This document shows positions 4,430 to 13,971 of a stretch of 37,298 bases of DNA, one piece after another. Every line of letters begins with the position of its first letter. Positions within the stretch are counted from its first letter, which is position 1. A program made the translations under genes and the position numbers. The notes beneath the pieces were generated by a model. The model saw only the letters and a program-made list of their open reading frames with translations, had not been told where the DNA came from and made no database searches. Origin of the DNA: an uncultured Bacteroidota bacterium (GTDB taxonomy: Bacteria; Bacteroidota; Bacteroidia; Chitinophagales; LD1); the NCBI GenBank assembly GCA_903917755.1, contig CAIXBT010000253.1, positions 1-37,298 of the forward strand, read 5' to 3'.

Positions 4430-7400
4430 TCAATGATCCTGTTTAGGCATCTCATATGGTTTGTGGTCTATCTTGCGATATGCCCAGCCGAATATGAGCG
4501 GGAACACCCACAAGGAGAACATCATCGCACAGAGTATACCTCCTATCACAACTCTGGCCAGCGGTCTTGAACTTTCTGATCCGATACCATGTGAGACAGC
4601 AGCCGGGAAAAGTCCGATGGCAGCCATCATGGCAGTCATCATCACCGGCCTGATCCTTGAGTTCACACCGAGTTTGATGGCTTCATAGAGCGAAGATTGC
4701 CCACCCTTGATCCGGTCCAGATTTTGCTTAAAGACCGTGATAAGCAATACTCCGTCCTGTATGCAGATACCAAACAATGCAATGAATCCGATACCCGCAG
4801 ATATACTAAAGTTAGTGCCTGTGAGGTGAAGGGCCATGATACCGCCCACGATCGCAAAAGGTACATTAAGAAACACCAACGCTGCATCTTTGAAATTGCC
4901 AAACATGATAAAGAGCAGCATGAATATCATGAGGAGGCTGATCGGCACTACCTGAGCCAGCCTTTTAGAGGCACGCTGCTGATTTTCAAAATCTCCCTGC
5001 CATGCCATTCTGTAGCCTTTTTTCAGAGTCACTTTCTTGTCCACTTTCGCCTGAGCTTCCGCTATTGTGCTACCCATATCCCTATCGCGCACAGAAAATT
5101 TAAGGGCGGAATATCTTTCATTATCATCTCGGAAAATGAGACATGGGCCTGTTTTCTGAGTGATGGTAGCTATTTCTTTGATAGGCACTCTTGCTCCGCC
5201 CATTGTGGGCACTAGCAGATTTCCGATATCCTCCGGCGTTTTTCTGTATTCTTCAGGCAGCCGTATTCTGATGTCAAATGTCCTGACACCTTCATACAGT
5301 GTAGATGCAGCCAAGCCACCAATGGCCATAGCTACGACGGCATTGGCATCTGCTGTAGCCACACCATAGAGAGCCATTTTTCGCTGGTCGAGATTGACAT
5401 CTATCTCGGGCTGACCAATATTGTGTATCACACCGAGATCATCGATGCCTCGTACACTTTTCAGGATATTATATACCTGATTGACCTTGCCCTCCATATA
5501 GTCGAGCGAATCACCATATACCTTGACACAAATAGACCCCTTGACACCGGATACAGCCTCTTCCACATTGTCCATGATAGGCTGGGAGAAATTTAGGTTC
5601 ACACCAGGAATAGTAGAAAGCTTTTTACTCATCTGGCTGATCAGCTCATCTTTCGAAATTTTCGGTTCCCATTCGCTCTCCGGCAGTAGCAGTATATCAA
5701 ACTCGTTATTGTAAAATCCTGCCACATCAGTACCATCGTCAGGTCTGCCGGTCTGAGATACAGCATAGGTCACCTGCGGGAAGGTCATCAATAACTTTCT
5801 GACCTGTGTAGAAACCTCCACTCCCTTATTCAGCGAAACACTATATGGCAGCTGTACCCGCAGCCATATCGAGCCTTCATTTAATTCCGGCAAAAATTCT
5901 GTACCCAGATACCTGAATGTATAAATGCCGATGGTCATTGCTACCAGAGAAACCACCACCACGATCTCTTTATGTTTGAATGATTTCATAAACCCAAAGA
6001 GCATGAAACCAGTGAGATGATGCACAAAGGGATTATGCTTTTCACGTACGTTCCGTTTCAATAGCATATTGATCAGGACCGGCACCAGTGTAAGTGTGGT
6101 AATGAGAGCACCGAGCAAAGCAAATCCAAGGGTATAGGCCAGCGGCGAAAACATTTTTCCCTCTACTTTCTGGAAAGAGAATATCGGTAGCAATCCTGTA
6201 ATGATGATCAGCTTCGCAAAAAATATCGCCTTACCCAGTTGTGCCCCATTGCGTTTGATCAGGCCCAGCTTGGTCATTTTGTTAAACCTGTCCATACCTA
6301 CATTCATGGCCTTATGATCGAGTATCACAAACATACCTTCGACCATCACCACCGCCCCGTCTATAATGATACCGAAGTCTACAGCGCCCAGTGACAGGAG
6401 GTTTGCGCTCATACCCATGAGATGCAGACATATGAATGCAAACAACAATGCCATCGGGATAATGATAGAAACGATCAAGGTGGTCCTCCAGTTAAACATG
6501 AAGAGAGATACCAGAAATGTAACCAGCAGTATGCCTTCTATCAGGTTGTGAAGCACCGTGTGTGTGGCAAATTCGATCAGGTCCGTACGATCATAATACG
6601 GCACGATCTTGGTATCAGCAGGCAGAATGCCATTGTTCAGTTTGTCGATCTGCTTTTTGAGATTGCTTACCACTTCCGAAGGGTTCTCTCCCTTTCTCAT
6701 GATCACGATCGCCTCGACCACATCGGTCTGGTCGGTTACGACACGCTTGCCCGTAGAATCTTTGAATCCGTCGCTTCTAGCCACCCATCCGAGACGTGGT
6801 ACGTTTGAGATCTCGACCGTAGCCACATCCTTGACCAATAGCGGCACACCATTGTTATTCTGAATGATGACGTTTTTTATTTCATTGATGTCATTGAGCA
6901 ATCCTATACCGCGTACTACAAATGCCTCGTCGTTTTGGATGATCATATCACCACCGATGTTGATGTTGGTTTTTTGGACAGCAGTGAAAACATCCAGCGG
7001 TGTCAGGCCAAATGATGTGAGTTTGCCCGGATCAACTTTTATCTCATATGTCTTGGTCTTGCCACCGAATGCCGTGATGTCTCCTATACCCTGCACGGCA
7101 CGGAGACGACGATCCACGACCCAGTCCTGGATTGTTTTCAGCTCACGTACATCCCGAAACGTGCTTTTGAGCGAGTAGCGGAATATCTCTCCCGTAGGGC
7201 CTGTGGGCGGCTGAACCTGAGGTTGAACATTGTTGGGCAGATTAGCATTCTGAAGAAGGTTCATCACCTGCTGTCTGGCCTGAGGATCCTTGATATCATC
7301 ATCGAAGATCAGCTTGACATATGAAAGTCCGAAAATAGTAGTCGAACGAAGGCTTATCTTGTTTTGCACAGGGTTCATGGCGAGTTCTACAGGTATCGTC

Positions 7401-7603
7401 ACAAATTTTTCCACCTCCTCTGCACTGCGGCCGGGCCATTGAGTGATAATACTTATCTCCGTATTGGTCACATCCGGAAAAGCCTCGATAGGCATATTCT
7501 TAAATGTGATGATACCAGCCACGATCAGCATTACCGCCGAGAAAAGTATGAAGTACTTATTCTTCAGCGAAAACCCTATTACACCTCTCAGAAACTTATT
7601 CAT
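4430..7603 (-). CDS. czcA: CzcA-like heavy-metal efflux RND transporter
   Basis: This 1057-residue inner-membrane proton/metal antiporter belongs to the HME-RND family and is full length. It has an N-terminal membrane helix (about 14-34), the first porter domain, a block of helices from about 345, and the TM4 motif DFGIIIDGAVVMVE (residues 409-422) carrying the proton-relay aspartates D409 and D415. The second porter domain contains TGRPDDGTD, and the C-terminal helices follow. Aligned by eye with CusA, the three copper-binding methionines are not conserved: the M623 position reads glutamate (NVEEAVSG) and the M672 position reads valine (YGVATADA). This favours divalent metals (Zn, Co, Ni, Cd) over Cu/Ag, though the ion cannot be fixed. 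It is the last gene of the efflux set, 76 bases after the adaptor gene. Confidence 0.92.
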   Translation of the reverse strand: MNKFLRGVIGFSLKNKYFILFSAVMLIVAGIITFKNMPIEAFPDVTNTEISIITQWPGRSAEEVEKFVTIPVELAMNPVQNKISLRSTTIFGLSYVKLIFDDDIKDPQARQQVMNLLQNANLPNNVQPQVQPPTGPTGEIFRYSLKSTFRDVRELKTIQDWVVDRRLRAVQGIGDITAFGGKTKTYEIKVDPGKLTSFGLTPLDVFTAVQKTNINIGGDMIIQNDEAFVVRGIGLLNDINEIKNVIIQNNNGVPLLVKDVATVEISNVPRLGWVARSDGFKDSTGKRVVTDQTDVVEAIVIMRKGENPSEVVSNLKKQIDKLNNGILPADTKIVPYYDRTDLIEFATHTVLHNLIEGILLVTFLVSLFMFNWRTTLIVSIIIPMALLFAFICLHLMGMSANLLSLGAVDFGIIIDGAVVMVEGMFVILDHKAMNVGMDRFNKMTKLGLIKRNGAQLGKAIFFAKLIIITGLLPIFSFQKVEGKMFSPLAYTLGFALLGALITTLTLVPVLINMLLKRNVREKHNPFVHHLTGFMLFGFMKSFKHKEIVVVVSLVAMTIGIYTFRYLGTEFLPELNEGSIWLRVQLPYSVSLNKGVEVSTQVRKLLMTFPQVTYAVSQTGRPDDGTDVAGFYNNEFDILLLPESEWEPKISKDELISQMSKKLSTIPGVNLNFSQPIMDNVEEAVSGVKGSICVKVYGDSLDYMEGKVNQVYNILKSVRGIDDLGVIHNIGQPEIDVNLDQRKMALYGVATADANAVVAMAIGGLAASTLYEGVRTFDIRIRLPEEYRKTPEDIGNLLVPTMGGARVPIKEIATITQKTGPCLIFRDDNERYSALKFSVRDRDMGSTIAEAQAKVDKKVTLKKGYRMAWQGDFENQQRASKRLAQVVPISLLMIFMLLFIMFGNFKDAALVFLNVPFAIVGGIMALHLTGTNFSISAGIGFIALFGICIQDGVLLITVFKQNLDRIKGGQSSLYEAIKLGVNSRIRPVMMTAMMAAIGLFPAAVSHGIGSESSRPLARVVIGGILCAMMFSLWVFPLIFGWAYRKIDHKPYEMPKQDH

Positions 7604-7679: not shown

Positions 7680-8789
7680 TTAACTATTCAACTCTCCATA
7701 TATCTGTATAGCCTGAGATGATATGACCCTGTCGCCATCTTTGACACCTGATTTGATATAGGTTTTATCTCCTAAAGTATTGAGTACTTCTACCGGTGTG
7801 ATCGAGGCATCTCCTTTACCATTATATACTACTACATAATAGCGGCTATTGTCATATATCAGCGCCTTGCTGGATACAGATATGGCATTCGTATTCTCAG
7901 GATTGGCAATGATGATACTGGCAAACATCTGCGGCTTCAATTCATAATTCGGATTTGGGATCACCACACGCACTTTCATAACCTTAGTAGCAGGATCGAG
8001 TGCATTGAGGATCTTATCAACTTTACCCTTGAATACTCTGCCCGGATATGAAAGCGTGGTCACACTCACTTCATCGCCCATATGGATACTGCCTATATTC
8101 GACTCATATACATTGGCCCATACCCATACATTTTTCAGATCTGAGATCGTAAAAATATTATTACCATTGTCTGTACGGATCGTGGTACCGTTTGTGATAC
8201 TTTTCTGTACTATGAATCCGCTTACAGGAGCTCTGACCACCCATTCACCTTTGGTGTTATCTCCATTTATTTTGAGTACCCTTTTAGACATTTCGAGTTG
8301 CGCCAATGCCTGATCATAATTGGTTTGAGCTACTGATACATCTAAGCTTGATGCCAGACCGCTTTTGAAAAGATCATTAGCAGCATCGAGTTGCTTCTTT
8401 GTGCTGGTGACATTGGTCTGAGCCACGATCAGGTTATTGCTGTAGCCGGCCATTTCACTGCTTTTGACCACTGCCAGTGTCTGCCCTGCAGTGACATAGT
8501 CGCCCAGTTGTACTTTCACATCGCTCACATTGCCGCTCACCTGCGGAAACACACTGACCTGATTGTCCTGATTAAAATCAACCATACCGGTGAAGGTGAT
8601 AGAACTGATCAGCGGAATGGTCCTGACGGTATCAAATTGCAAGGTCTTCAGCAGGGTATCAGGTATTACATATTTACGTGTAGTTTCCACCACTTGCTTT
8701 TTCTCACCATTGCAGCTTTGCATAGCCACGCTAAAGAGAGCAAGTATTATGGCGAAAGTGGATGCCTTGACTAAAAATTTACTTCTCAT
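7680..8789 (-). CDS. czcB: RND efflux periplasmic adaptor lipoprotein (CzcB/CusB-like)
   Basis: This 369-residue membrane-fusion protein bridges the RND pump and the outer-membrane channel. The N-terminus is a lipoprotein signal, with hydrophobic residues 9-22 and a lipobox ending at C26 (VAMQSC). The barrel-sandwich/lipoyl half-motif is visible as FPQVSGNVSDVKVQLGDYV, followed by a helical hairpin (about 120-165), the second lipoyl half around VRAPVSGFIVQKSI, and beta-barrel and membrane-proximal domains ending DGDRVISSQAIQIYGE. I see no extra histidine-rich metal-binding N-terminal extension of the kind found in some CzcB proteins. Only 6 bases separate it from the channel gene upstream, which indicates co-transcription. 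Confidence 0.92.
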   Translation of the reverse strand: MRSKFLVKASTFAIILALFSVAMQSCNGEKKQVVETTRKYVIPDTLLKTLQFDTVRTIPLISSITFTGMVDFNQDNQVSVFPQVSGNVSDVKVQLGDYVTAGQTLAVVKSSEMAGYSNNLIVAQTNVTSTKKQLDAANDLFKSGLASSLDVSVAQTNYDQALAQLEMSKRVLKINGDNTKGEWVVRAPVSGFIVQKSITNGTTIRTDNGNNIFTISDLKNVWVWANVYESNIGSIHMGDEVSVTTLSYPGRVFKGKVDKILNALDPATKVMKVRVVIPNPNYELKPQMFASIIIANPENTNAISVSSKALIYDNSRYYVVVYNGKGDASITPVEVLNTLGDKTYIKSGVKDGDRVISSQAIQIYGELNS

Positions 8790-8795
8790 ATTTTA

Positions 8796-10157
8796 TTAAT
8801 TAAAAAAATTCGTGCCTGTATAAAAATTGAGGTCTTCGAATGACTGCACCTTGTTATAATTGATGGTATTTAACTGAAGACTGTTTTGCTTATACGAATC
8901 ATAAAAATCAAGAAAGTCGAGCAGCCCAATATTTCGCACCTGATAGTTCTTGACCACTTCTCCGGCCAGCCTGTCAAAATCTCCCGAAAAAGCCGGATCG
9001 ATACTTTTAGTTAGGACCTCATTATCCAAAGCTTTCTGAAGTGAGCGGTAAACATTTTCCTCGAGCGTGGCTTCTACACTTTTCTGCGTAGCCATTGCAT
9101 TTTGGATATTATATTTCGCTGACTTGATATTGCCCTGATTATGGTTAAAAAACGGCAGGTCAATTGACAATCCGATCGTGGTGAGGTTATGTACATAACT
9201 ACCCTGCTGGTCATAACTGAAATTGAGCGATGGGTCAGGCACTCCCAGAGATCGCTGGTATTTCAGATTGATCTTATTGATCTCTGTATTTTCTTTGGCT
9301 ATCATCAGATCGGTCCTGTTGTGATATGCCGAATCGATCAGTGCGGCCAGAGGATATTTATGAGGGTCGAGTGTTTTTAAAGTTGCTGTATCTACCATTG
9401 GTATGATGAACTGGTGCCTGACCTGCAGCAGCAATCTTAATTCACTCTGCTGATCATTGATCTGATTTCTGAGATCGTTATACTCACTCCGCAGGCTATA
9501 TAGTTGTGCTTTGATCCTCACCACATCTTTTTCAGAGATATAGGCTTTGGCCTTTTGTGCGTCGTATGCATCTGCTATTTTTTGAAGGGCGTTGATTTCT
9601 GTATCGTATACCCGAGCAGACTGGAGCAAGTAGTATATATTGAAAAAATCTGAACGCAGCGTGTACTTCAATGTTCTGATCAGATCAAAAAACTGATATT
9701 CAGACAGGGTTGTATTCGCTTTGGCCAGTTTGATGGCGTTGTTCCTCTTGCCGGCTATCTGTATCAACTGCGAAAATCCAACTATTTCTTCACCGATCTC
9801 TGAACCGGGTGTCGGAAACCATCTCTTAGCAGTACTGTTATATAAAGTCTGAGAATAGGATGCATTAGGGTTTGGGAAAACCTTCGCTTGAATGATCAGC
9901 GCACGTGTAGCTTCGACATTATACTTCTGTGCCAGCAGTAAAAAATTACTATCCAGAAAGCTCCTTTCGCATTGACTCAGTGTGAGCCTTAGCGTATCAG
10001 TGTCTCCGGCCTTGCTTGAGTTTATGGCAGAAATGCAAAATACACTACACATAAATGCACCCAACGAGAGGTGTCTGCATATCTGCCCTAAAGAAGTATG
10101 TATAAAACTGAAGAAATCTACAACTTTCATAAAAACCAACCTGATCCGGTCTCTCAT
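8796..10157 (-). CDS. czcC: TolC-family outer-membrane efflux protein (CzcC-like)
   Basis: This protein of about 453 residues carries two outer-membrane-efflux (OEP) repeats of long coiled-coil helices. Typical features are ALIIQAKVFPNPNASYSQ near the N-terminus and IGLSIDLPFFNHNQGNIKSAK in the second repeat, the latter a hallmark of the CzcC/CusC branch in Bacteroidota. It forms the outer-membrane duct for the pump encoded downstream. An in-frame TTG at 10187 would add 10 residues. I chose the ATG at 10157; a further ATG at 10130 (MKVVDFF) gives a more ordinary signal peptide and is also possible. It is the first gene of the efflux operon, 79 bases after the kinase stop codon, with two candidate regulatory elements in that gap. 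Confidence 0.9.
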   Translation of the reverse strand: MRDRIRLVFMKVVDFFSFIHTSLGQICRHLSLGAFMCSVFCISAINSSKAGDTDTLRLTLSQCERSFLDSNFLLLAQKYNVEATRALIIQAKVFPNPNASYSQTLYNSTAKRWFPTPGSEIGEEIVGFSQLIQIAGKRNNAIKLAKANTTLSEYQFFDLIRTLKYTLRSDFFNIYYLLQSARVYDTEINALQKIADAYDAQKAKAYISEKDVVRIKAQLYSLRSEYNDLRNQINDQQSELRLLLQVRHQFIIPMVDTATLKTLDPHKYPLAALIDSAYHNRTDLMIAKENTEINKINLKYQRSLGVPDPSLNFSYDQQGSYVHNLTTIGLSIDLPFFNHNQGNIKSAKYNIQNAMATQKSVEATLEENVYRSLQKALDNEVLTKSIDPAFSGDFDRLAGEVVKNYQVRNIGLLDFLDFYDSYKQNSLQLNTINYNKVQSFEDLNFYTGTNFFN

Positions 10158-10160
10158 AAA

Positions 10161-10188
10161 CTTGCACCTTTTAAAATGGAAGTGCAAG
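10161..10188. promoter_or_regulatory. Inverted repeat CTTGCAC-N14-GTGCAAG ahead of the efflux operon
   Basis: Perfect 7-bp arms (10161-10167 and 10182-10188) flank a 14-base spacer containing TTTTAAAA. The repeat lies immediately upstream of the chosen ATG of the TolC-type gene. It could be an operator, or an mRNA hairpin that controls translation. There is no T-run after it, so a terminator is less likely. Confidence 0.4.
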
Positions 10189-10212
10189 ATTGCATCATAT
10201 TAATTAAATCAG

Positions 10213-10242
10213 CCTTAAAACAACCTTAAAAAAGGCTTAAAC
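10213..10242. promoter_or_regulatory. Three CTTAAA direct repeats at 11-bp period: candidate response-regulator box
   Basis: CCTTAAAA (10213-10220), CCTTAAAA (10224-10231) and GCTTAAAC (10235-10242) share the core CTTAAA at exactly 11-bp spacing, about one DNA turn. OmpR/PhoB-family regulators bind such tandem half-sites head to tail. The array lies 56-85 bases before the ATG of the first efflux gene and runs into the kinase stop codon. No TAnnTTTG box is present between the array and the gene, as expected for an activator-dependent promoter. Confidence 0.5.
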
Positions 10243-11601
10243 TTTAAAGGTGACCTTGATCTGATTGAAATTGGGGATGTTAATATTATATAATATTTCA
10301 GCTTCGTTGTATTGCAGTATTCTCTTCACGATGCTGAGTCCAAGCCCGAAACCCTTGCTCTGTATAGCATTGCTACCTCTCACAAACGGATCAAATAATT
10401 CATATGTGTTTTTTACATCAGGTGTCTTGCCGGTGTTTTCAAAAAAAAGGTCAATGGATTTTTCCTCCTGAATTATCTTTATAAACACCTCTTTGGTATC
10501 GGAATAAAGATATGCGTTTTTCAATAAATTATTGATCGCGATCTTCAGCAGCGACTCATCTCCCCGCACTTCCAGTTTGTCTTCGGCATTGGTTTCGTTG
10601 ATGATCTCAAAATGGATCTTCAGATCCGGATAGAACTTCTTTAAAAATTCTGAGCTGCTGAAAATGATCTCATCTATCCTTACGTTAGTAAAAGATTTTG
10701 ATGGATTTTCTTTTTCGAGTTTAGAGAGGATGAGCAGTGATGTGACGATGTCTGAGAGCTGCTGCGTATCTTCATTGATACTGGCCAGAATAGGTATATA
10801 TTTAGCCGGAAAATCCGGATTCTGCATCAGGTTTTCGAGTTGAGCGCTGATCTTCGACAGGGGTGTGCGTAGCTCATGAGAAGCACTGCCCACGAAACTT
10901 TTTTGGTATTGAAAAGATTTTTCGATCCTGTCGATCATCATATTAAATGCCCTGGTCAGCTCCGTGATCTCGTCTTTTCGCCCCTTATCTTCTATACGGG
11001 TACTTAGATTATTTTCCGATATATTCTGCACCTTGCCTTTGAATACATCCAGCGGGGTCAGCGCCTCTTTGCTTAGATAGAATGAGAGTATCCATACCAG
11101 TACTAAGCCTATCACAAAGGCGGCAAGAAAGAGATATTTGAGATATACCAGATTTCGATTGCCAAACTTATCTTCGGCAGATATGAGTACGAGGTATACC
11201 TTGCCTTGATAGGTACTTTCGATCCCGACTATGTCATACTCATTCTCGGTCATGTAGATATAGTCTTCATCCTGTATCCTTTTGAGCAGTTTGCTATCCC
11301 AGTTTATCACTGCGTCATCTATACTGCTATATATGAGTTTAAAGCTATCGTTAAAGATGAGTACCTTTTCATTATACAGGTTATTGATCGTGTTTGAATC
11401 GATCAGTTTCAGCAGCTGATAGTCTACCTGCTTGACCTCCACGAGCAGTTTGAGTGTGGTCTGGGCCTTTTCTTTCAGCCTGTTTTGGATCTCTTCCTTT
11501 CTGAAATTAGCAAACTGTGTATAGACCAAAAACAGCATCGTAGCCAGAATGACTGAATAGAGTATGCTGAAAGAAATTGAGAATCGCTGCTTTAAGTTCA
11601 T
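10237..11601 (-). CDS. Sensor histidine kinase, HAMP type (metal-sensing candidate)
   Basis: This 454-residue inner-membrane kinase has TM1 at about 10-30, a periplasmic sensor domain (31-152) and TM2 at about 153-175. A HAMP linker and the HisKA domain follow, with phosphoacceptor H242 in SASHELRTPLSK, and then the HATPase domain. The N-box asparagine is N362 in NLLKNA. The G1 box is degenerate (FFENTGKTPD in place of DxGxG), while the G2 box GFGLGLSIV (417-425) is intact; this pattern is common in Bacteroidota kinases. The periplasmic domain lacks His/Cys clusters, so the metal ligand is not evident. It lies 75 bases downstream of the response regulator and directly upstream of the efflux genes, which suggests it senses the pump's substrate. 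Confidence 0.93.
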   Translation of the reverse strand: MNLKQRFSISFSILYSVILATMLFLVYTQFANFRKEEIQNRLKEKAQTTLKLLVEVKQVDYQLLKLIDSNTINNLYNEKVLIFNDSFKLIYSSIDDAVINWDSKLLKRIQDEDYIYMTENEYDIVGIESTYQGKVYLVLISAEDKFGNRNLVYLKYLFLAAFVIGLVLVWILSFYLSKEALTPLDVFKGKVQNISENNLSTRIEDKGRKDEITELTRAFNMMIDRIEKSFQYQKSFVGSASHELRTPLSKISAQLENLMQNPDFPAKYIPILASINEDTQQLSDIVTSLLILSKLEKENPSKSFTNVRIDEIIFSSSEFLKKFYPDLKIHFEIINETNAEDKLEVRGDESLLKIAINNLLKNAYLYSDTKEVFIKIIQEEKSIDLFFENTGKTPDVKNTYELFDPFVRGSNAIQSKGFGLGLSIVKRILQYNEAEILYNINIPNFNQIKVTFKV

Positions 11602-11676: not shown

Positions 11677-12363
11677 TCAATTTCCCTTTAAGTAATAACC
11701 AAAACCCGGTCGTGTATGGATCAGCTTATCATCATGGCCTTTATCGATTTTATTTCTGAGAAAATTGATATAGACCTCAATTGTATTGGTACCGGTGTCA
11801 AAATTGATATCCCATACCTGCTCGGATATGGTCTGCTTGGAGACCGGACGGCCCTTTGCTCTGGCCAGTAGCTCTAACAGACGAAATTCCTTGGGGGTCA
11901 ATTCAATGGCCTGTCCATTTCGGTTCACAGACATCTGAGATGTATTTATGGTCAGATCGTCTACTACTATCAGGTCATCCGGGTCTGTCTGCTGCTGTCC
12001 GGATCTTCTGATCAGCGCATTGATCCGTGCCGTCAGTTCATCAAAATGAAAGGGCTTGACCAGATAATCGTCTGCACCGATATTGAGCGCCTCTACTTTG
12101 TCATTCACATCGCCGAATGCTGTAAGCATAAGAATGGGAGTCGACCTATCCTCCAGTCTCACCTTTTTGCAAACTTCTAACCCATTGAGAGAAGGGACAT
12201 TGATATCCAGGATCAGTATATCATATTTATTGGCAGGTATGTATTTGAATACCGCCTGACCATCGTATGCTATGTCACAGACGCAGCTTTGTGCCACAAA
12301 ATACTGCCTTATCTCGCTTGCGAGCTTGGGGTCATCTTCCAGCAAAAGGATATTGAGCTTCAT
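11677..12363 (-). CDS. OmpR/PhoB-family response regulator
   Basis: This 228-residue two-domain regulator has a receiver domain (1-115) with acidic pocket E9/D10/D11, phosphoacceptor D53 (LILDINVP), T81 and K103 (LVKPF). The C-terminal winged helix (about 130-226) contains ELTPKEFRLLELLARAKGRPVSKQTI and the closing motif HTRPGFGYYLK. Every residue needed for phosphotransfer is present. It is the first gene of the regulator-kinase-efflux series and is most likely the activator of the operon starting at 10157. The upstream gap to the divergent lipase gene (12364-12528) holds a 15-bp palindrome at 12458-12472. The CTTAAA boxes seen before the efflux genes are not repeated here, so autoregulation is not supported by the same motif. 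Confidence 0.94.
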   Translation of the reverse strand: MKLNILLLEDDPKLASEIRQYFVAQSCVCDIAYDGQAVFKYIPANKYDILILDINVPSLNGLEVCKKVRLEDRSTPILMLTAFGDVNDKVEALNIGADDYLVKPFHFDELTARINALIRRSGQQQTDPDDLIVVDDLTINTSQMSVNRNGQAIELTPKEFRLLELLARAKGRPVSKQTISEQVWDINFDTGTNTIEVYINFLRNKIDKGHDDKLIHTRPGFGYYLKGN

Positions 12364-12472: not shown

Positions 12473-12528
12473 AAATGTTAGGCAAATGTTATCAGGGAAT
12501 ATTTCCATATTTGATACAAATTAAGATA

Positions 12529-13971
12529 ATGAAAAAAATAGCTGTACTTTCTCTGTTTGTATTGTCCTTTACTGTTTCCTTTTCTCAAAGGATCGTCAAC
12601 AAAATATGGCTTAAAACATTCACTGCTCAGCAGATCGACTCTATTCTCAGCGCAAACGGCGTTCCCAATATTTTCGGCAACACATACGACATCGATGTTT
12701 ACAGACTGATATATAATACTGTCAGCTATGACAGTACTGCTATCACTGCTTCAGGTATGATGGTGGTACCCAGAAATAAAAGCTGCAAATTTCCGATGGC
12801 AGTCTACCATCACGGTACAGAGAGCGCCAAAACCGAGGCCCCGTCTTATTTGGGCGGTCAGGAGCCGGTGATCGGCATGGTCATGGCTTCAATAGGTTAT
12901 GTAGTAGCAGAACCGGATTATCTGGGTCTGGGAGATGGTCCAGGACTGCATCCATATCAACATGCACAGACAGAGGCCAGTGCTTCGATAGATATGCTGC
13001 GTTCCGTCAGGGAATATTGTGACTCGGCAGGTATCCGCAGAAACGGACAACTGTTTCTGATGGGATACTCTCAGGGTGGACACGCTTGTATGGCTACACA
13101 CCGTACTATCCAAAATCAGCTCCATGGCGAATTTAACGTGACTGCTGCTGTGCCTATGTCGGGAGCCTATGACATGTCCGGCGTGATGATCAATACCATG
13201 CTATCTGATACACCTTATTCACAGCCCGGCTATCTGGCAGATCTTATTATTTCATGGAACCCCATCTACCATCTATACGATTCTATTCAGCAGGCTTTCG
13301 TAGCTCCTTATGATACTACATTGCCTCGTCTGCTGGATGGCAATCACGGCATCAACTATCTCAACAACGCCATGCCGAGTGTGGCGAAACACGCTTTCAC
13401 TGCCGGCGAGCTTGATACATTTGTTAATAATCCCAATTCTAGAGCAAGAAAGGCACTCAAGGAAAACGACGTGTTTGACTGGTTGCCACTCTGCCCGGTC
13501 AAGATACTTTTCTGTAAGGCCGATCAGTATGTACCATATATGAATTCCGTAGTGGCTATCAATAAACTGAGACAGAATGGATGCACTCTCTGCGATACAT
13601 TGGATGTGGACCCCAGCCTGAATCACGTACCATGTGCTCAGCCAGCTATTCTGAAAGCCAAACAGTTTTTTGATCTTTTCAGATCGATCGATAGCTGCAA
13701 TGCGCTAGGCATCAACGACCCGTTAAGCAATGCGATAATCAGTGTTTATCCTAATCCGGCTAAGGAAAAACTCAATATAGAGGCCTATTTCAGCGACCTG
13801 AGCTTCACGGCAGCCTTCTATGATATGGAAGGCCGAAAAGTGCAGGATATCGCTTTGAATAATGGCATCAATATCATATCTCTGAGCGATATGAATACCG
13901 GCGTTTATATCCTGAAGATCACCGACAGCAATGGTACAAGCCGTATCAGCAAGGTGACGGTAACTAAGTAA
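12529..13971 (+). CDS. Secreted lipase-like alpha/beta hydrolase with T9SS sorting domain
   Basis: From the ATG at 12529 this is a 480-residue protein beginning with a clear signal peptide (MKKIAVLSLFVLSFTVSFSQ). The hydrolase domain resembles secretory lipases: an oxyanion-type VYHHGTES segment, AEPDYLGLGDGPGLHPY, nucleophile S181 in GYSQGG, a probable acid D332 (CKADQYVP) and histidine H366 (LNHVPCA). Residues about 401-480 form a type-A T9SS C-terminal domain (ISVYPNPAKEKLNIEA ... MNTGVYILKITDSNG ... KVTVTK), so the enzyme is exported across the outer membrane and is released or surface-anchored. An upstream in-frame ATG at 12475 would bury the signal peptide and is rejected. A near-consensus promoter box CATATTTG lies at 12506-12513. 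The substrate (ester or lipid) is not determined. Confidence 0.88.
   Translation: MKKIAVLSLFVLSFTVSFSQRIVNKIWLKTFTAQQIDSILSANGVPNIFGNTYDIDVYRLIYNTVSYDSTAITASGMMVVPRNKSCKFPMAVYHHGTESAKTEAPSYLGGQEPVIGMVMASIGYVVAEPDYLGLGDGPGLHPYQHAQTEASASIDMLRSVREYCDSAGIRRNGQLFLMGYSQGGHACMATHRTIQNQLHGEFNVTAAVPMSGAYDMSGVMINTMLSDTPYSQPGYLADLIISWNPIYHLYDSIQQAFVAPYDTTLPRLLDGNHGINYLNNAMPSVAKHAFTAGELDTFVNNPNSRARKALKENDVFDWLPLCPVKILFCKADQYVPYMNSVVAINKLRQNGCTLCDTLDVDPSLNHVPCAQPAILKAKQFFDLFRSIDSCNALGINDPLSNAIISVYPNPAKEKLNIEAYFSDLSFTAAFYDMEGRKVQDIALNNGINIISLSDMNTGVYILKITDSNGTSRISKVTVTK

Follow-up and report, generated by a model that had tools for sequence, protein, structure and literature searches.

The stretch of DNA that was analysed (the window) comprises positions 1-37,298 of contig CAIXBT010000253.1 from the assembly GCA_903917755.1 of an uncultured Bacteroidota bacterium (Chitinophagales; LD1). 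On its minus strand, genes for a response regulator, a sensor kinase and CzcC-, CzcB- and CzcA-like proteins follow one another consecutively down to position 4430. The response regulator (11677-12363) is of the OmpR/PhoB type, its receiver and winged-helix (Trans_reg_C) domains being recognised by matches to PF00072 and PF00486 above the gathering scores, and its recognition helix reads NTIEVYINFLR. It is followed by a sensor histidine kinase (10237-11601), identified by matches to the HAMP, HisKA and HATPase domains, and then by a czcC-like gene for an outer-membrane factor of the OEP family (8796-10157), which is the first gene downstream of the repeats described below and whose start, judging from a congener, is probably the ATG at 10157. 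The remaining two genes encode a czcB-like RND adaptor (7680-8789; TIGR01730 above its cut-off, and PF16576) and a czcA-like pump (4430-7603), which scores 873.6 bits against TIGR00914 (cut-off 701.45) and is hence a member of the CusA/CzcA family of heavy-metal RND pumps. Divergent to the regulator gene, at 12475-13971, lies a gene for a lipase-like secreted protein that carries a type IX secretion sorting tail.

In the preliminary description, three CTTAAA boxes were reported on the forward-strand letters between the sensor kinase and the first efflux gene, with a response regulator gene just upstream. Their positions (10214, 10225 and 10236), the spacing of exactly 11 bp, the arrangement of the genes and the overlap of the box at 10236 with the stop codon of the kinase gene are all correct. 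However, a fourth core, ATTAAA at 10203, which is in register with the other three and has one mismatch, was missed in that account, and the strand was left unstated. When read on the minus strand, which is the transcribed strand, the hexamers are TTTAAG-N5-TTTAAG-N5-TTTAAG-N5-TTTAAT, and the full array runs from 10242 to 10203 with a period of exactly 11 bp. It consists of the heptamers GTTTAAG (box 1, 10236-10242, containing the kinase stop as GTT TAA G), TTTTAAG (box 2, 10225-10231), TTTTAAG (box 3, 10214-10220) and ATTTAAT (box 4, 10203-10209), separated by cctt, gttg and gctg, respectively; all four boxes were located both in the sequence and by a scripted in-register search. These four boxes thus have the spacing of direct repeats (10-11 bp) by which a tandem operator of the OmpR/PhoB type is recognised. 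A 7-bp inverted repeat, CTTGCAC/GTGCAAG, is seen just downstream of the array. A scripted array search of all 37,298 nt found the array at 10203-10242 only; as no array of the 11-bp kind precedes the regulator gene of the window, autoregulation is not indicated.

When up to three mismatches are allowed, the triple CTTAAA-N5-CTTAAA-N5-CTTAAA has two overlapping matches in the window, both belonging to the one array, versus a mean of 0.08 and a maximum of 1 in 100 dinucleotide shuffles. The genome-wide search for this triple, which had been proposed earlier, returned the window array as the only exact site in 4.05 Mb, and the earlier view that three boxes in phase are striking despite their A/T-richness is borne out. 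The second-best non-overlapping sites in the genome have three mismatches, a level at which there is no genome-wide excess (6 matches vs 7 for the reversed pattern). The pair CTTAAA-N5-CTTAAA is not rare, being found at five sites in this genome, two of them inside the window array (control 0), and no metal genes were recognised by eye within 2 to 3 kb of the other two-box sites (L001, L002 and L005). A search of 396 genomes of the order gave 12 places with the exact triple, spread over nine genomes, as against 3 for the reversed-pattern control (counted from the table). In four of these nine genomes it lies beside czc-type genes, viz. in the present genome, in G002 (L009), where the next gene starts like the czcC of the window, in G258 (L045), where it comes after a kinase with a czcA match of 58% identity further down, and in G017 (L046), where it precedes a czcA match of 89%. 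Three more genomes (L044, L048 and L049) have the triple as a perfect 11-bp tandem repeat, and in the remaining two (L043 and L050) it is neither. The triple of TTCTAAT, found at two sites in 1 of 119 genomes, with no related kinase recognised by eye in the 3 kb surrounding either, was dropped as an uninformative genome-wide search term.

Lack of conservation in close relatives had been named beforehand as an outcome speaking against a role for the boxes. In G002, the one congener found with this system, whose kinase is 92-93% identical, all 24 letters of the four hexamers are unchanged, that of box 4 included, whereas changes are seen in 2 of the 15 spacer letters and in the final codons of the kinase. 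The ATGATGCAATCTTGCAC downstream of the array is likewise kept, and the inverted repeat CTTGCAC/GTGCAAG is not intact. The congener kinase (L136; G002 contig 87, 952-2311) is split over two frames, which reflects either a broken gene or an assembly error. Two further draft assemblies, G017 and G025, contain orthologues of the regulator and the kinase (71-72% for the latter) on contigs apart from their czc genes. After these kinases (L146 and L147) there is no array, and the surrounding 16 kb that were read contain no czcA match; one weak RND match (24%) lies at the distal end of the G025 kinase contig. The arrays of these two assemblies are found instead at the pump promoters: in G025, there are four boxes ahead of czcC and another four, with a single step of 12 bp, ahead of a second czcA, and in G017 czcC is preceded by two perfect boxes and a second czcA by eight TTTAAK boxes at 11-bp spacing (L135; contig 125, 9387-9470), the regulator orthologue being on another contig. 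In this distribution, the array goes with the target pump genes. Conservation of the array upstream of orthologous czcC genes had been proposed earlier as a check, and boxes do precede czcC in G002, G025 and G017.

The layout is also widespread among more distant relatives, a breadth of conservation which the original operator idea, although otherwise sustained, did not foresee. Arrays were defined as three TTYTAAK boxes with at least 18 of 21 matches, lying between 45 bp before and 200 bp after the kinase stop. This consensus was read off a first set of 45 loci around related kinases, of which 44 were counted (L009, a near copy of the window, was left out) and two come from metagenome bins labelled as Spirochaetes and Alphaproteobacteria; weaker kinase matches (L019-L035) were left out of the counts. 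The other 150 of the 194 loci were gathered after the motif was fixed, viz. a held-out set of 63 loci from the order, of which 62 were counted and L163 was dropped for want of a kinase ORF, and a third set of 89 loci from the class, of which 88 were counted, L284 being dropped on the same ground. These are 63 and 89 among the matches listed, mainly the top-ranked ones; their kinases were found by a widened rule with an H-box pattern broader than in the first version, and one near-duplicate pair (L054 and L216) occurs across the sets. Three-box arrays at 11-bp spacing are present in 25 of 44, 31 of 62 and 28 of 88 loci (84 of 194 in total), counts which are not independent, as the loci are related by descent. 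At spacings of 8, 9, 10, 12, 13 and 14 bp the totals are 0, 1, 10, 5, 0 and 0 of 194 (0-2 of 44, 0-3 of 62 and 0-5 of 88 per set). No array is seen right after the related kinase in 19/44, 31/62 and 60/88 loci, most often in the third set. One locus counted as a miss, L036 (Emticicia, from a plasmid search), has a partly similar system in which one box is perfect and another is out of register by a base. Further, in the held-out set all 11 loci whose regulators have the helix NTIEVYISFLR (L176, L178, L179 and eight more) are without such an array downstream of the kinase, and these paralogues may recognise a different site.

Against dinucleotide shuffles of its own region, the array reaches p <=0.05 in 29 of the 44 first-set loci. 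In a lag test that makes no use of the consensus, the mean best 18-bp self-match in these 44 loci is 12.25 at lag 11 and 10.66 at lag 22, the remaining lags from 5 to 30 giving 8.68-9.75; in the 62 held-out loci the values are 11.27 and 10.55, with 8.61-9.6 for the remaining lags from 7 to 33. Inside the kinase gene there is no peak at 11 among lags 9 to 13, and the peaks at 11 and 22 are not seen in controls from outside the phylum. In the 50 loci of the latter kind (L084-L133) no arrays were found, but this is a weak control, since their mean G+C content is 65%, as compared with 37-39%, and only five are under 50%. A better control is provided by the remaining spacings, applied to the same loci.

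In many of these loci, the array also stands in a preferred phase to a promoter-like element. Flavobacterial sigma-A promoters, as described in PMC9723704, have a -7 box TAnnTTTG at -12 to -5. In the window, the predicted -7 element CAATCTTG (10185-10192, minus strand), chosen by the phase test and the TAnnTTTG consensus, starts 17 nt after the start of box 4, leaving a gap of 10 nt from the end of the array, and differs from the consensus at two of its six fixed positions. Transcription would then start near 10180, in which case box 3 would span -40 to -34 and box 4 would span -29 to -23. The best -7-like site starts 17 nt after a box start (phase 6 of the 11-bp register) in 16/27, 14/28 and 10/24 of the arrays with a candidate in the three sets, where three of the first-set arrays are the extra G025 and G017 promoters. 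One base later (phase 7) it is found in a further 4, 6 and 7 arrays; accordingly, the constant phase by which a class II site on a Bacteroidota sigma-A promoter is recognised is seen, as phase 6 or 7, in 20/27, 20/28 and 17/24, and 1/28, 3/31 and 4/28 arrays have no -7 candidate at all. This geometry suggests a class II activator that would replace the -33 element. The array does lie upstream of the efflux operon, as described earlier, but its phase to the -7-like element had gone unnoticed.

The letters of the boxes vary between loci, and they do so together with two residues of the recognition helix of the neighbouring regulator, which we number 191 and 196 from an alignment by eye with PmrA. 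For this comparison, arrays required a three-box score of 18 or two perfect boxes; among the 106 loci in the first two sets, the helix is readable in 92, and an array is present in 52 of the 92. Under this scoring rule, which itself favours T or C at base 3 and T or G at base 7, regulators with Phe at 196 have majority T at base 3 in 23/24 arrays (one tie), those with Tyr have C in 21/27 (four ties, two T) and the single one with Ser has T (1/1); similarly, Glu at 191 goes with G at base 7 in 9/11 (two ties) and Asp with T in 40/41. The same scoring was applied to the third set, where 77 of 88 loci have a readable helix and 27 an array; here, base 3 is T with Phe in 18/18 and with Leu in 2/2, and C with Tyr in 5/7, and base 7 is G with Glu in 12/17 (two ties, three T) and T with Asp in 10/10. 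All four combinations occur, viz. Glu-Phe with TTTTAAG, Asp-Phe with TTTTAAT, Asp-Tyr with TTCTAAT and Glu-Tyr with TTCTAAG. Among the Glu-Tyr regulators, L256 and L293 have TTCTAAG, L247 has TTCTAAT and L057, from the first set, has mixed boxes. The outright exceptions are L078, L173, L288, L290, L221, L271 and L247, and nine further arrays are ties at one position. The regulator of the window has Glu and Phe, and the predicted TTTTAAG is present and is the main form of its boxes. A paralogous kinase and regulator are encoded on contig 114 of the same genome (L305), where the helix is NIVEVYINYLR and the proposed code predicts TTCTAAG boxes. Another residue, Asn195, was considered as a mark of array-bearing regulators (50/71 with Asn vs 2/21 without in the first two sets), but was dropped in view of the third set (24/70 vs 3/7).

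On a tree of 79 regulators, made with the helix columns excluded, the fewest changes needed are 6 for Phe/Tyr and 3 for Glu/Asp. The Phe/Tyr switch is represented by four well-supported independent pairs, of which a mean of 3.5 follow the code, 0 oppose it and 0.5 are unchanged (median p 0.125), and the Glu/Asp switch by two, of which 1.6 follow and 0 oppose (p 0.5). The independent pairs thus never oppose the code, yet they are too few for significance. Asn196 in the recognition helix of PmrA contacts bases, according to PMC4660055, and position 191 would likewise be a base-reading residue. We regard it as somewhat probable that Bacteroidota OmpR-type regulators use a modular two-letter code, in which residue 191 sets base 7 (Glu with G, Asp with T) and residue 196 sets base 3 (Phe with T, Tyr with C).

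Taken as a whole, the array is very probably a class II operator through which the adjacent OmpR/PhoB-type regulator acts on czcCBA. The kinase, responding to what would be a metal signal, would phosphorylate the regulator, dimers of which would bind the four head-to-tail half-sites, two dimers in all, each turn of the helix carrying one half-site. Since boxes 3 and 4, which lie closest to the pump genes and are predicted at -40 to -23, would occupy the position of the -33 element, RNA polymerase would be recruited by the bound regulator to the weak -7 element, and the pump genes would be switched on from an internal promoter located where the kinase gene ends. The assignment to the adjacent regulator, made in the preliminary description from the layout, now gains support from the box letters, which follow the helix of the neighbouring regulator in most loci, from the recurrence of the layout and from its association with pump genes.

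It is also conceivable, but unlikely, that the array serves another OmpR-type regulator of the cell, or that it mediates repression instead of activation. Additional kinases are encoded in the genome (a search with the query kinase gives 22 matches at E 0.001, counting the query itself), and the direction of regulation is read from the layout. However, the box letters agree with the neighbouring helix in most loci, and the helix of the cell's own paralogue on contig 114 differs, with no such array visible after its kinase; against repression, the boxes end 10 nt before the -7-like element, a usual place of an activator. That three similar hexamers fell in phase by chance in an A/T-rich stretch is most improbable: box pairs do occur elsewhere in the genome, near-matches with three mismatches are no commoner than in the control, and perfect 11-bp tandem repeats can yield the triple, but the exact triple is unique in the genome, the congener has conserved the boxes amid changed flanks, and the specificity for 11 bp appears at the same place in loci gathered later. 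Equally improbable is that the repeats act at the RNA level or as part of the kinase gene's end (as a terminator or in translational coupling), for although box 1 overlaps the kinase stop, an offset shared exactly by 10 of the 84 arrays, and the 7-bp inverted repeat lies close by, 65 of the 84 arrays begin no earlier than the end of the stop, direct repeats cannot pair with one another, in the congener the inverted repeat is not intact, and arrays precede second czcA genes without any kinase between.

As an operator, the array is an ordinary kind of part, and it is the widespread layout together with the proposed code that is worth following up. To our knowledge, the two-component regulons of Bacteroidota are little mapped, and the operator and promoter predicted here for a metal-efflux operon are concrete. 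The covariation suggests that the binding sites of a large class of regulators are readable from two amino acids; if the code is true, operators could be predicted from the regulator sequence, and whole regulons with them, with a preferred 17-nt step to the -7 element. In addition, the eight boxes before the second czcA of G017 provide a long natural array for relating box number to output. No title describing such an array was found in the open-access literature, though one may be in print elsewhere.

In its gene content, the locus resembles the CzcRS, CusRS and CopRS systems of proteobacteria, where a response regulator and a kinase are likewise found beside a CzcCBA/CusCBA-type pump. The best NCBIfam matches of the two proteins are TIGR01387 (CztR/SilR/CopR), the best-scoring family of the regulator, and TIGR01386, but both fall below the curated cut-offs (210.9 vs 279.2 bits and 164.2 vs 292.55 bits, respectively), and the regulator is outside the CztR/SilR/CopR family as so defined. 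The proteobacterial Czc/Cus/Cop operators are generally described as palindrome-like TTACA sites, not as direct repeats of TTTAAG. There is also a likeness to the PmrA (BasR) box of enterobacteria, and the helix NTIEVYINFLR resembles that of PmrA. As described in PMC3973317, PmrA, also a regulator of the OmpR/PhoB family, binds head to tail to the half-sites CTTAAT and CCTAAG, which share the TAA core and the 5 bp between hexamers with the window array, and the TTTAAT of the window fits the Salmonella half2 site XTTAAT. However, PmrA has two half-sites, whereas the window has four, and other genes are involved; the PmrA domain binds TTTAAG, the main hexamer of the window, less well than CTTAAT (PMC3973317), and the base-contacting residue 196, which is Asn in PmrA (PMC4660055), is Phe in the regulator of the window. 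The site of the window may work in a PmrA-like manner, but its regulator, which scores 170.5 bits against the PmrA family NF007928 (cut-off 330), is not PmrA. In the PhoB box, 7-bp half-sites separated by 4 bp give a period of 11 bp, which is the layout of the window. Sigma is reported to contact PhoB at the half-site that holds the -35 element (PMC4660055); the PhoB box differs from the array of the window in its half-site letters and its regulon, and the window has a -7 element of the Bacteroidota kind.
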